A DNA stretch of 48,908 nucleotides from Desulfovibrionaceae bacterium (lineage in GTDB: Bacteria; Desulfobacterota; Desulfovibrionia; Desulfovibrionales; Desulfovibrionaceae): the NCBI GenBank assembly GCA_017454005.1, contig JAFTDU010000096.1, forward strand, positions 1-48,908. The letters run 5' to 3'. Every line of letters begins with the position of its first letter. The stretch's first letter is position 1. A program made the translations under genes and the position numbers. This document shows, one piece after another, positions 13,590 to 28,171 of the stretch. The notes under the pieces are model-generated. The model was not told where the DNA came from and made no database searches. It was given only the letters and a program-made list of their open reading frames with translations.

Positions 13590-14056
13590 GCTTGCAAAGA
13601 GTGTGTGCCCTAGTATGCATTGCCATATTGCAGGGGCTCTTATAGAATAAAGTTTAAGCGTAGTTCTAGAGATTAAGTGTGGCTTTAAAATGTTCTTTAG
13701 GTTTATCTACAAAGATTACAATTGAACGATATATGTATTATGTTTAGCTTCAATGTTTGAACGTCGTTGTGCCATAGACCAAGTTGTCTTTACCCTTTTT
13801 CGGGTAAGCCATTCAAAAATATCGTCGAAATGTAATAACGTTTTGTAGACACTCATATTACGACGTACAAAGAGTGCAAAATTTTAGTATTGCTTGCACT
13901 CACAACATCCATTTACAAAAGAAGACGCTTTTCTAGCGATATTTTCATAATGCCATAATATTACGCAGCATATTGTTTAAGGTCGAAGTAGTTTTGGGAT
14001 CTAATATACAAGACTGCAGCCCTGAAGCAGATGTTTAATTTGGTTAAGGAGAACCT
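13590..14056. other. Intergenic region with one inverted-repeat element
   Basis: The 467 bases hold repeat copy B (13736-13838, separate entry). After it lies a weaker inverted pairing around 13880-13905 (AGTGCAA...TTGCACT). The promoter of the OmpH-like gene must lie near its end. No ORF is seen. Confidence 0.6.
13736..13838 (+). repeat. Inverted-repeat element, copy B
   Basis: About 103 bp, beginning TATTATG and ending GTAATAA. The two ends are imperfect inverted repeats of about 28 bases (roughly three quarters matching). The middle holds a hairpin with stem CTTACCC/GGGTAAG around a T-run. The core blocks (ATGTTTGAAC, GTTGTG, GTTGTC, AGCCATT, ATATCGTCGAAATG) recur in copies A, C, D and E. 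Confidence 0.8.
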
Positions 14057-17429: not shown

Positions 17430-17963
17430 GGCGTTAAACCTCAAAATATAATAAATAAACAAGTGTTAAAAATGGTCTTTATGTACGTATCAATTTTATA
17501 AGCAGAAGCTTTATTTTCTTGCAGTATAAAAGTTGTTTGAATAAACGTATATCTTTTAGATTTAGGTTGCGAGACTTTAAAAATTACATTTGACGATCTT
17601 TTTGACTAGCTTATACTACTAAGAGTGAGACTAGCTATGCTTTGGCAACATGTTGGTACAACTTAATAAACTATTATGTTCCCTTAAAACACGATAATCT
17701 CTTATCTTTTTTTAAACAATTTTTTGAATATAATATAATATATACTCTAAAATCTTAATGCTACAATATTATTTATAAATAAAACGTATCACTATTACAG
17801 CTATACTTATTCAATATAATTTGACCAACATATTGCATTGCACATATATGTTTGAATGGCTGACCCTGATAAGGACAACCTGGACTATGGCACAACAGCG
17901 TTCAAACATTTTGTCACCACATAATAAGTCTTTCAATACACATATTAATTGTATATATCTAGC
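17430..17963. other. Gap between thiS and thiG with one inverted-repeat element
   Basis: Apart from repeat copy A (17831-17927) this is AT-rich DNA without an ORF. I looked on the minus strand for a thiamine-pyrophosphate riboswitch ahead of thiG and did not find the conserved thi-box blocks. Confidence 0.55.
17831..17927 (-). repeat. Inverted-repeat element, copy A
   Basis: About 97 bp, in reverse orientation relative to copy B. Read on the minus strand it starts TTATTATG, holds ATGTTTGAACGCTGTTGTGCC and GGTCAGCCATTCAAA, and ends near GCAATA. The central hairpin is shorter than in B (CCT-GATA-AGG), a deletion of the T-run loop. It lies between thiS and thiG. Confidence 0.78.
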
Positions 17964-24063: not shown

Positions 24064-25068
24064 ATGCTGGATGCTTTACTTTGGCTAAATATAGATGACA
24101 CCACTGTCGAATGTCTTGTTTGTGGGCATCATTGTCGGCTTAAAAACGGCATGAAAGGCCGTTGCGGGGTACGCGTTAATAAAGAAGGAAAACTCTTTAG
24201 TGTTGTTACAGATTTAGTTTCAAGTATCCAGATGGATCCTATAGAAAAGAAACCTTTGTATCACTTCTTACCAGGAACGAGAACTTTTTCTATTGGTAGC
24301 GTGGGTTGTAATTTTAGATGTAAATTTTGCCAGAATGATCATATTTCTGTCATTCCTAAATCTGGCATTATTAATGGTAAACGTACCTCAGCGCGTTCCC
24401 TGATCGATTTAGCAATCCAATATAAATCAAAAAGTATTGCTTTTACATATAATGAACCCACAATATTTATTGAATTAATTAATGATGCCTCAGAATTAGC
24501 TTTTGCCCATAAAATTCCCGTAATTCTTGTCAGTAATGGGTTCATGAGCACAGATTTTCTTGATATGCTTGCCAACCGCGTGCAAGCTGTCAATATAGAT
24601 TTGAAGTCCTTCAGAGAAGACTTTTACCGTGAATATTGTGGAGGACATCTCCGTCCCGTCCTCGATAGTTTAAAACGCATTCGGAAGATGGGTTGGTGGT
24701 TAGAAGTCACAACCTTAGTTATTCACGGGCTTAATGACAGTCCTGAAGAAATTCGCGATTGTGCAAGGTTTATTCGTGATGAATTAGGCGCAGATGTGCC
24801 CTGGCACCTCTCGGCTTTTCATCCTGCCTATCTCATGCAAGATCGCGCAGATACTTCCCTGGAACAATTGCAAGCTGCGTGGAGCATTGGCAAAGAAGAA
24901 GGTTTAGAATATGTCTATCTTGGCAATGTGGGCGCTGCAGTTGGCGGCAATACCTATTGTCCACAGTGTTCTAACTTGGTAGCTGAACGCTCGCCTTGGA
25001 AAATTAGTTTCCCAGCTTCGGGTAAGTGTCCCAAGTGTGGACATGATATTCCAGGAGTGTGGCATTGA
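24064..25068 (+). CDS. amrS: AmmeMemoRadiSam-type radical SAM protein
   Basis: The protein of 334 residues has an N-terminal cysteine-containing part (CLVCGHHCRLKNGMKGRCGVR), the radical-SAM motif C82, C86, C89 (GCNFRCKFCQN), the SAM-binding region FTYNEPTIF and a C-terminal pair of CxxC motifs (CPQCSN, CPKCGH). This arrangement belongs to the AmrS family, named for frequent linkage or fusion with Memo and AMMECR1 proteins. Its substrate is unknown to me. The frame is open to a TTG at 24058, but the ATG at 24064 has AGGAAAGG eight bases upstream. No Memo or AMMECR1 gene is adjacent here. The end overlaps the start of cobO, so the two are probably cotranscribed. Confidence 0.9.
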   Translation: MLDALLWLNIDDTTVECLVCGHHCRLKNGMKGRCGVRVNKEGKLFSVVTDLVSSIQMDPIEKKPLYHFLPGTRTFSIGSVGCNFRCKFCQNDHISVIPKSGIINGKRTSARSLIDLAIQYKSKSIAFTYNEPTIFIELINDASELAFAHKIPVILVSNGFMSTDFLDMLANRVQAVNIDLKSFREDFYREYCGGHLRPVLDSLKRIRKMGWWLEVTTLVIHGLNDSPEEIRDCARFIRDELGADVPWHLSAFHPAYLMQDRADTSLEQLQAAWSIGKEEGLEYVYLGNVGAAVGGNTYCPQCSNLVAERSPWKISFPASGKCPKCGHDIPGVWH

Positions 25069-25273
25069 TATTACTGTATACAGGCCCGGGCAAAGGCAAA
25101 ACATGTGCTTGTGTTGGTCAAGTCTTGCGAGCACTCGGGCAAAATTTACAGGTGGCCTTTGGACAGTTTATCAAACGCGAAGGCCAAGCAGGTGAACAGC
25201 GTTTCCTCAAAGACTTATTGAGGGAACGCTTTTGTGCCTGTGGGGCTGGGAAAATAAATAAAACCCTTTACAT
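25065..25273 (+). CDS. cobO: Corrinoid adenosyltransferase CobO, exon 1
   Basis: CobO (BtuR/CobA type) moves the adenosyl group of ATP to cob(I)alamin or a precursor. This first part carries the P-loop (YTGPGKGKT) and LRALGQNLQVAFGQFIKR, then CACGAG, and would run into a stop at 25287-25289 if not spliced. The second half of the protein lies over 1 kb downstream, at 26342. I chose the TTG at 25065 because GGAG is seven bases upstream; a GTG at 25059 is too close to it. Both overlap the amrS stop. With the splice model the product is 168 residues, close to the family's usual length. If splicing fails, the gene is broken. Confidence 0.8.
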
Positions 25274-25818
25274 CTTGCAAGAGGTGTAAACTCAACGTTA
25301 AATGCTTTGAATCCCTAAAGCCTTACACCTAAACAGTAATCTGAAAAGATAAGCTGAAGGCGCGAAAGCAAAAAAAACGTAAGGATGGCATAAGGTGCAA
25401 GACAAGCGGAACTCCGTCCTAAGTGCCATAAATAATGGGTGTTTAGCAGGGACAGTCCTAAACTTTTTTTAAGCATGGAAGACCCCCAACGACTATCTCC
25501 TTGAGGGAGAGTAAAGCAGGAAGCCTACGCCTGAAGAAAAATGTTGCGCCACTTTGTTATTACCTTTTGAATATATTGTGCAGAGAAGGTGCTAAAATAT
25601 TGAGCGTAATGTGTACAATATTCAAATACAGTTTAAAAATTTGAAAGTGCATGTATTAGATTACTACGATATTTTGCATAAACTTGCCGTTGCACACAAC
25701 TATATTCAAAGCTTTTAGGAAACATAATAAGAAATGGCTGAAGATATAGTCTGCACTCATGTGAAAGCATGAGAGGTCCTAGAGACTGCGTTAAAAGTTG
25801 CGTTTTAACGTGAACAAG

Positions 25819-26340
25819 ATCATTATATTTTAAGTTGACTTTTTTCTATATCATAGATGACAGATATTTTGTAATTTATTGTAAGATGGTATATTTTTGC
25901 ATCAGACTTATTTTTTTGAAAGATTATATATGATTAATATAAATAATTACAAATAGTACTTTTCTCTAAGTCTTAGGTAATCTTCTAAACAATATGTAAA
26001 ATGCAAAGATGATCTAGCTATAAGAGTACTATTTACAAATTACACTATTGATGTACACTGTATTGTCCAGTCTCCGTAATTTTTCTTAGACTTTACTTTT
26101 CTGAATAGAAGATTTGCTAACATATATTAATCATGCAAGACATTACGTTTCATCGCTATTTGTGATTGGCTGACCTTAAAAGTGTTAGAACAATCTTAGC
26201 TCTGGAACAACGATGTCCAAACATTTTGATGCAACATAATAATTTGCTGTAAAGTGATATAGAAAAATTCTTTGTAAGAAAATATAGATCAAGAGTATCG
26301 CAACTTAAAATATTTTAATCATTATGGTTTATTTCAAAAA
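25819..26340 (+). other. Non-coding tail of the intron insertion
   Basis: About 520 AT-rich bases lie between the last recognisable intron helix and cobO exon 2. No homing endonuclease or transposase ORF remains. The tail contains repeat copy D (26142-26243). An alternative 3' splice site at G25818 (TGAACAAG, resembling the td intron end) would leave this tail in the message and lead to a stop. Confidence 0.6.
26142..26243 (-). repeat. Inverted-repeat element, copy D, inside the intron tail
   Basis: About 102 bp in reverse orientation relative to copy B. On the minus strand it reads TTATTATGTTGC, AAAATGTTTGGACATCGTTGT, GGTCAGCCAATCA and ends CGTAAT. It is somewhat more diverged than A, B and C. 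It lies about 100 bases before cobO exon 2. Confidence 0.75.
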
Positions 26341-26341
26341 G

Positions 26342-26639
26342 TGGTGTACCCTTTGAAATACATCGTAGTTGTGCGCAAAAAGTACTTGCTTGGGCGCATG
26401 CCAATTTGACCAAGGTTGACCTTTTAGTCTTAGATGAACTCTGTTATGCGCTGCACTATGAGTTAATTACAGAAGAAGAGGTACAAGACTTAATTAACAA
26501 GGCTAGATGCCATTTGGTGTTTTCGGGTAGATTTGCGCCTCCTTGGCTTGTGGATGCAGCTGATCTTGTGACCATTATGGATTCCCCTAAACATCCTAAA
26601 ATGCAGGGCGTGTCTGCCAGGCCAGGACTCGAATATTGA
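26342..26639 (+). CDS. cobO: Corrinoid adenosyltransferase CobO, exon 2
   Basis: The second part of CobO reads GVPFEIHRSCAQKVLAWA, then VDLLVLDELCYAL, with the Walker-B-like acidic residues, EEVQDLI, LVFSGRFAPPWLVDAADLVT and a C-terminus ending ARPGLEY, which matches the end of BtuR/CobO proteins. The frame is open back to 26319, so residues FISKSG before G26342 could also belong to the ancestral protein; indeed CACGAG followed by FISKSGVPF aligns better with E. coli BtuR spacing than the spliced model does. No start codon with a ribosome site is seen for independent translation. murA follows 72 bases later. Confidence 0.78.
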
Positions 26640-28068: not shown

Positions 28069-28171
28069 TATTACGTTTATCCAACATGTTTGAACATCGT
28101 TGTGTCAGATTACAGGTTGTCCTTACTCTTTTTCTGGTCAGCCATTTAAAAATATCGGCGAAATGGAATAA
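28069..28171 (+). repeat. Inverted-repeat element, copy C
   Basis: About 103 bp, same orientation as copy B and closest to it: ATGTTTGAACATCGTTGTGTC, GGTTGTCCTTACTC, TCAGCCATTTAAAAATATC, ending GGAATAA. The central stem is weakened relative to B. Confidence 0.8.

Follow-up and report, generated by a model that had tools for sequence, protein, structure and literature searches.

A probable group B-like IStron copy in a split cobO-like gene and its relatives in a Desulfovibrionaceae genome

INTRODUCTION

What divides the cobO-like gene of a Desulfovibrionaceae bacterium into two halves, where exactly does the intervening DNA begin and end, and how may it have come there? In the window, which is the whole stretch of 48,908 nucleotides of DNA analyzed here, this gene for a corrinoid adenosyltransferase is split on the plus strand, with exon 1 starting at 25059 and exon 2 ending at 26639. 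A sequence-only reading had described the DNA between the halves as a group I intron of the phage td type and as an isolated, rare case. Among open papers, searched by their titles and the beginnings of their abstracts, no paper on group I introns in Desulfovibrio was found.

According to its main text, the IStron survey of 2014 worked through mobility genes, screened 584,685 genes, and placed IStrons only in Firmicutes and Fusobacteria, with at most 24 per strain; Desulfovibrio is not mentioned in that main text (PMC4227781). As characterized there, group B (IS607-type) IStrons have a 5′ exon ending in G, a GG-ending target, the 3′ end CGG, and U as the first intron base, and GAACAA after P9.2 is an IStron motif.

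RESULTS

The joined product of the two halves matched CobA_CobO_BtuR over residues 7-171 of 171 with 155.8 bits, above the Pfam cut-off, bearing out the earlier statement that both belong to one adenosyltransferase; its NCBIfam score was below the cut-off (127 vs 185 bits). When 61 genomes were searched, the cobO match was uninterrupted in 49 other genomes of the same genus. Exon 1 (25059..25250, plus strand), placed from its ORF, the Pfam match of the joined protein, and the same-genus relatives, ends in GGG GCT GGG, and exon 2 (26328..26639, plus strand), placed by the junction against relatives, begins with TTT ATT TCA. The intron ends were set by host-protein homology together with the family pattern, in which TGGG precedes the intron and xGG ends it. 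The predicted junction joins the exon end GCTGGG (G25250) to T26328 and reads GCTGGG followed by TTTATTTC. It restores a GF motif present in all 19 aligned same-genus relatives, and the junction peptide GAGFISKS is one residue longer than theirs.

With a profile of the 19 relatives, the G25250/T26328 junction scored 224.2 bits, compared with 216.2 bits for the previously proposed junction of U25273 to T26342 and 214.0-215.1 bits for three further in-frame choices. The U25273/T26342 junction is in frame and stop-free as claimed; however, it replaces FISKS by KINKTLYI, loses GF, and is 8 bits lower. The 5′ splice site is accordingly placed 23 nt upstream of U25273, after G25250, and the 3′ end at G26327 instead of G26341. 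Exon 1 ending at 25249, combined with 26342 or 26345 as the 3′ end, was rejected (214.0-215.1 vs 224.2 bits). An exon 1 ending at the T before GGG was also rejected, as it would substitute R, S, and I for conserved G, W, and M residues in polA, glmS, topA, and panC. The predicted intron in cobO is 25251-26327 (plus strand, 1,077 nt); a shift of 1-2 bases is possible and compatible with homology, because GG is present at both intron ends.

To ask for relatives, the earlier-claimed intron DNA was used as the query against the genome from which the window comes (1.97 Mb in 120 contigs, scored 67.85% complete). There were 70 matching pieces, most of which fell into two blocks, query 1-278 and 462-562, corresponding to P2 to P9.2, while a few were part of another, dispersed repeat. 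With a covariance model for P7-P9, constructed from 22 copies, 28 matches were obtained in this genome, representing 27 core loci, since two matches came from the split cobO copy. Four more 5′ halves without a core lay at contig ends (C50, C53, C78, and C24); they may belong to cores without 5′ ends, and the copy number is therefore 27 to 31. Of the 31 listed copies, 8 were cut by a contig end and 23 were not, and the cobO copy lies in the middle of its 48.9-kb contig. The cobO intron is thus no isolated case: at least 27 core copies occur in the same genome, together with copies or loci that carry TnpB and RAGATH-18.

The RNA structure was derived from an alignment of 17 copies, from ACCC to GTGAACA, which excluded the window copy on account of its P8 insert. 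RNAalifold predicted 104 pairs, and 38 of these showed compensated changes. For 12 named helices with 71 pairs (P7 as a pseudoknot), 98.7% of 1198 cells were paired and 32 of the 71 pairs had changed on both sides. In versions slid by 1-3 columns, 36-41% of cells were paired, and none of 500 shuffles was as high on either measure (cells paired or covarying pairs), a count that is not a probability because the copies are related.

The helices could be positioned on the plus strand of the cobO copy, in which P1, P2, P3, P7, and P9.2 are all intact. P1 (25248..25266) would be formed by exon GGG at 25248-25250 and CCC at 25264-25266 around the loop AAAATAAATAAAA; it shows no covariation because GGG and CCCTT are invariant in the 25/25 copies with a placed 5′ junction. 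P2 (25267..25290) pairs 25267-25276 with 25281-25290, and in the 17 copies 10/10 pairs were kept, 6 of them compensatory. This helix, with U25273 opposite G25284, had been taken for P1. It directly precedes P3 and is therefore P2, and it recurs inside other copies, so that it is not exon sequence. The 5′ strand of P3 (25293..25299) has its partner at 25540..25546; all 7 pairs were kept, 2 of them compensatory in 7/17 copies. The change among copies from CAACGUU/AAUGUUG to CAGUGUU/AAUACUG fixes the order P2-P3. The proposed P7, 25491..25496 with 25746..25751, pairs exactly and was invariant in 17/17 copies. P7.1 and P9, also proposed before, were found in the 17-copy fold, and the alignment positions the P9 hairpin at 25756..25773 and the P9.2 hairpin, followed by GTGAACAAGAT, at 25788..25811. 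Judged from the sequence, the element has the P3-P7-P8-P9 core with the conserved P7 guanosine-binding site and is on this ground a group I intron, with splicing itself as a prediction.

The P8 loop of the cobO copy contains a 183-nt insert (25552..25734, plus strand), to which query 279-461 corresponds; beyond a few edge bases, this part was unmatched among the copies. The distance from P7 to P7′ was 253 nt in the cobO copy vs 75-92 nt in the other 26 measured, and the insert split the covariance-model match in two (25467-25587 and 25712-25774). In the predicted fold, the insert forms a long stem. Downstream of P9.2, AU-rich left inverted repeats (25818-25837 and 25841-25853, together 25818..25853, plus strand) pair with right repeats at 26301-26320 (85%) and 26255-26267 (100%), respectively, and both close an AU-rich tail. 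The right repeats and the right end, TAATCATTATGG, occupy 26255..26327 (plus strand); the Selenomonas element and the C13 copy described below have TATTTATCGTAGCGG for comparison. A dispersed repeat of ~100 nt is nested in the tail (26142..26241, plus strand). It was also seen in the window at 13736-13836 (-), 28069-28169 (-), and 17847-17927 (+), and elsewhere in the genome on contigs C36, C52, C71, C72, C86, and C97.

The Rfam Intron_gpI search proposed as a check gave no match in the window at the gathering score (50); a 1,601-base search returned 25624-25773 with 30 bits (E 2.5e-5). At the gathering level, an intron was called in one of nine scanned loci that hold copies (the window, L012, L015, L023, L029, L110, L028, L033, and L092, among which L028 and L033 are without a 5′ end and L092 is a weak copy), namely the C13 copy with 52.5 bits. 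The copies and their covariation are much stronger evidence for a group I intron than Rfam.

Where the host gene was identifiable, homology to the host protein extended up to a GG-ending site. Of the 25 copies with a placed 5′ junction, 24 had the tetramer TGGG and one had AGGG; outside these, L009b directly follows another intron, and the 5′ junction of L027 was not placed. In the 25 copies, the GG-ending 5′ site lay 11 to 189 nt upstream of CCCTT. As such a tetramer occurs within 120 nt in 25/27 copies and is common by chance, we put the weight on host-protein homology in ten joined genes, which were all genes with both junctions set (L010a and L024 are without a right junction). Removal of the predicted introns restored a single frame in 10/10 genes: cobO, panC, glmS, polA, topA, truB, nth, and the genes for an [FeFe] hydrogenase, a YcaO protein, and an M50 protease. 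The first junctions chosen for M50 and nth did not restore the frame. For M50, the 3′ junction was then moved; for nth, the frame was restored only with both introns removed, the second cut being after GGGG. The two nth introns (L009, 1393-2290) stand back to back, the second beginning at the end of the first, so that removal of the first would create the 5′ site of the second. The truB gene also has two introns, and their removal restored the frame. Closely spaced intron pairs were seen at L009 (nth), L010 (endonuclease I), and L020 (truB).

Family matches spanned the junction in 7/7 joined proteins scanned (CobA/CobO, PanC, GlmS, the N-terminal part of PolA, TruB, [FeFe] hydrogenase, and YcaO), the PolA part scoring below the NCBIfam whole-protein cut-off; for the joined nth product, all Pfam matches were below the cut-off. 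Among the 12 introns in the ten joined genes, 8 ended in CGG, those of cobO and YcaO in TGG, that of M50 in AGG, and that of polA in CGA. The topA copy is compact, at 504 nt. A stop in the host frame was located 0-36 nt inside the intron in 21/21 copies measured, and one more was not located; an in-frame stop just inside the intron is described in an excerpt of PMC3984707 as a trait of many group I introns in protein genes. Outside the ten genes with both junctions set, further interrupted genes named by homology were rpsF (below the Pfam cut-off), thyX, rtcB, trpA, argJ, and the genes for an HU/IHF-type DNA-binding protein, an OTC/ATC-type carbamoyltransferase, cyclophilin, and endonuclease I. 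In one host-gene scan, no family was found for 5/10 fragments, and one fragment had only a domain of unknown function below the cut-off; in another scan, no family was found for 2/10. Several of the interrupted genes (polA, topA, and glmS) are usually essential.

Several marks of group B IStrons were present in these copies. The insertion site ends in GG, with a 5′ exon ending in G, and a last exon base of G still fits a group I intron because group B IStrons, themselves members of group I, have been described with it. The motif after P9.2 was GTGAACA in 15 of the 17 aligned copies, with GTGAACG and GTGAACT once each; this GAAC(A/G)N motif is followed by AU-rich inverted repeats, which were measured in the cobO and C13 copies (in C13, the longest exact run was 9 nt within a longer imperfect match). 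The 3′ end CGG is found in the family and not strictly in the cobO copy, which ends in ATGG. The first intron base was C in 16, T in 8, and A in 1 (cobO) of the 25 placed copies. U is therefore not the rule at this position, and the element is called group B-like, a variant. A group A IStron of the CdISt1 type was rejected, since the target is TGGG or AGGG and the end is xGG or CGA, vs a T-rich pentanucleotide and TCAG.

The same genome also contained loci with a protein gene. In the C13 copy, the intron core is accompanied by what looks like a decayed first gene, by two overlapping pieces of TnpB, and by RAGATH-18, and its right end is the same as that of the Selenomonas element. Contig C11 carries a 393-aa TnpB with RAGATH-18 and has no intron model match. 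Two more TnpB pieces, not tied to any intron, were located at contig starts (C110, above the Pfam cut-off, and C76, below it). RAGATH-18 RNA (Rfam RF03064) was seen just downstream of TnpB near the right end at L033 455-529, L105 1664-1738, and L110 5858-5930; as it stands directly 3′ of TnpB in three loci, it is probably the TnpB guide-RNA scaffold of this family. The IS607 transposase (NF033518) was not found in this genome, at its completeness of 67.85%, or in the same-genus genome G151; a further genome of the genus, G150, has a match that passes the cut-off, although its intron copy lies on a different contig. Regarding ORF A and ORF B of IS607, the window copy has neither, its genome has TnpB at C13 and C11 and no ORF A, and the Selenomonas relative has both.

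This relative, an element on Selenomonas ruminantium pSRC1 (NC_017078), which we infer to be SrISt1 of PMC4227781, where the main text places SrISt1 on a plasmid, is among the closest known systems. It shares the left end (ATAATGGG, then TAAC), the P2, P3, P7, and P9 blocks, and the GTGAACAAGATAAAT motif, and its right end, TACATATTTATCGTAGCGG, is that of the C13 copy. The compact L029 copy was 69.8% identical to it over all 386 nt, after which its IS607 transposase and TnpB follow. Unlike this element, the cobO copy has neither gene, starts with A where the element has U, and contains the P8 insert and the nested repeat. The 1,077-nt cobO intron matched the Selenomonas plasmid over 332 (72.9%) and 120 columns (72.5%) with 199 and 69 bits, past P9.2, and an Enterococcus phage intron in one block of 250 columns (71.2%, 109 bits). 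The two matches are close in identity, and it is the ends and the relatives with TnpB that settle the assignment.

Three other systems were compared. According to the main text of PMC4227781, BcISt1 of the Bacillus cereus group (group B) also has a GG-ending target, an exon ending in G, and a CGG end, and ORF-less variants of it are known; its splicing was demonstrated by RT-PCR. It differs in its U as the first intron base and in having three copies in the tested strain. CdISt1 of Clostridioides difficile (group A), as described in the same text, likewise combines a group IA2 intron with an IS and has 9-24 copies per strain in protein genes, whereas its IS200/IS605 type, T-rich pentanucleotide target, exon end U, and 3′ end TCAG are unlike ours. 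The dsrA intron of Thiomargarita with a MITE likewise interrupts a core metabolic gene of a bacterium that does not belong to Firmicutes; it is of group IA2, and its P9 region contains a dispersed repeat comparable to the one nested in the cobO intron tail; unlike the cobO intron, it is of the U-G type and was compared with phage Twort introns (PMC4853749).

The intron DNA query had no match in 60 relatives, 36 of them of the same genus. The P7-P9 model matched in 4 of 348 genomes of the order, namely the window's own genome, G151 (7 matches, one weak), G150 (1), and one genome of another genus with a weak match, and in 2 of 395 genomes of the phylum, the own genome and one with a weak match; stricter filters were used for both sets, so that weak members may be missed. 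The weak matches outside the genus, in G179 (37.9 bits) and G436 (37.3 bits), were not counted and seem to be group IA introns of another kind. A P7-P9 pattern search over one genome per species gave 26 stretches, located in the goat-rumen Desulfovibrionaceae RGIG3607 (5) and RGIG3724 (1), Lysinibacillus (10), Lachnospiraceae (2), Defluviitaleaceae (2), Prevotella, Acetobacterium, a Veillonellaceae, a rumen Selenomonadaceae, Synergistales, and goat-reticulum Synergistaceae genomes. The same pattern was observed in three viral contigs (L160, L161, and L162), in one of them twice.

A tree was constructed from 34 of 46 extracted rows, after 12 without a 5′ half were dropped; it has no row from phage, Lachnospiraceae KH1T2, or one Lysinibacillus locus, and other pattern-search loci were left out. 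On one side of a split with support 98/96 were 21 of the 22 copies from the window's genome. The other side held the remaining copy, L020b, along with G150, six G151 rows, Selenomonas, Synergistaceae, Prevotella, and two Lysinibacillus rows. Many inner forks were weak, and 9 of 31 were starred. The G151 copies, assigned by translation only, are in other genes (metG, priA, a permease, and a tRNA-modification gene). Considering this and the split, the copies in the window's genome seem to have arisen largely by multiplication within it, once the element had come in from elsewhere.

DISCUSSION

The cobO intron is very probably a copy of a group B-like (IS607-type) IStron that has multiplied in a Desulfovibrionaceae lineage, with splicing, past mobility, and cobO function as the predicted parts of this explanation. 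We observed the copies, the structure by covariation, the in-frame junctions, and the TnpB-bearing relatives in the same genome. IStrons are already known; the present variant belongs to a lineage other than Firmicutes and Fusobacteria and has radiated widely there.

On this explanation, an IS607/TnpB transposon with which a group IA-like self-splicing intron had fused would have entered this lineage and multiplied at GG-ending targets, mostly TGGG, with mobility provided by an IS607-type recombinase that is now perhaps lost. The cobO copy and apparently most others would then have shed their protein genes, while the ribozyme and the P9.2-GAACA motif were retained and, in cobO, the AU-rich inverted repeats as well; for copies other than that in cobO, the ORF-less state was judged from size in the stretches read, not gene by gene. 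In the RNA, exon GGG would pair with the internal guide CCC as P1, a guanosine bound by P7 would attack after the last exon G, and the freed exon end would attack after the terminal G of the intron, joining the exons without a scar, so that cobO is proposed to stay functional. Translating ribosomes would be stopped short of the ribozyme core by the in-frame stop codon near the intron start.

The cobO copy could instead splice poorly, or be a dead remnant of an IStron that no longer splices, leaving cobO a pseudogene. Its P8 insert, nested dispersed repeat, non-CGG end, and A as the first intron base would suit such decay, as would the absence of a detected transposase from the incomplete genome. 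Nevertheless, the reading frame is open in both cobO exons, which can be aligned with relatives along their full length, the helices from P1 to P9.2 listed above as intact have been preserved, and sister copies sit in polA, topA, and glmS, genes that are hardly dispensable; we therefore consider a dead copy unlikely.

That an ordinary group IA intron of the phage type, unrelated to any transposon, homed or reverse-spliced into cobO is very improbable. The earlier assignment to the td type holds as far as the group I class, the phage-like (IA) core blocks, and the restored frame are concerned, and the P2-P7.2 part had matches of 60-80% identity in 76 phage records; in 17 of these, the match covered at least 80% of that query. 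What argues against an isolated td-like phage intron is the many copies in unrelated genes behind GG-ending sites, the longer part of the cobO intron query that is matched by the Selenomonas IStron than by the phage intron, and the presence, in the window's genome, of a TnpB copy that has both the intron core and the family right end. The ORF list of the window also contains no reading frame of at least 60 aa wholly inside the cobO intron, which speaks against both a phage intron and a homing intron. An assembly or binning artefact, to which the 120 contigs, the low completeness, and the copies cut by contig ends might point, is scarcely credible given the mid-contig position of the cobO copy, the 23 uncut copies, and a second genome (G151) with its 7 model matches in other contexts.

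Returning to the group B-like IStron, we give about even chances to a wider proposal, according to which its radiation has left one bacterium dependent on about 30 ribozymes. Most copies would be one intragenomic clade, apparently without protein genes, with the 5′ site after G mostly lacking the group B U. They would interrupt replication, translation, and metabolic genes (polA, topA, glmS, rpsF, truB, hydrogenase, and cobO), including genes with two introns and an intron directly behind an intron, and splice without a scar, so that part of the core metabolism would be expressed only through group I splicing.

ORF-less IStron families of this kind would escape surveys, because IStrons have been surveyed through mobility genes, as the main text of PMC4227781 describes. 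Interrupted genes may also appear lost in genome-quality estimates; in the genome studied here, interrupted markers (rpsF, polA, and topA) may artificially lower the completeness score of 67.85%. The rumen may be a place where such elements cross phyla. With so many copies, natural substrates are available for studying how the 5′ site after G is selected by a group I ribozyme, and the presence of at least 27 introns, several of them in usually essential genes, suggests that bacterial protein genes can accumulate group I introns in large numbers.
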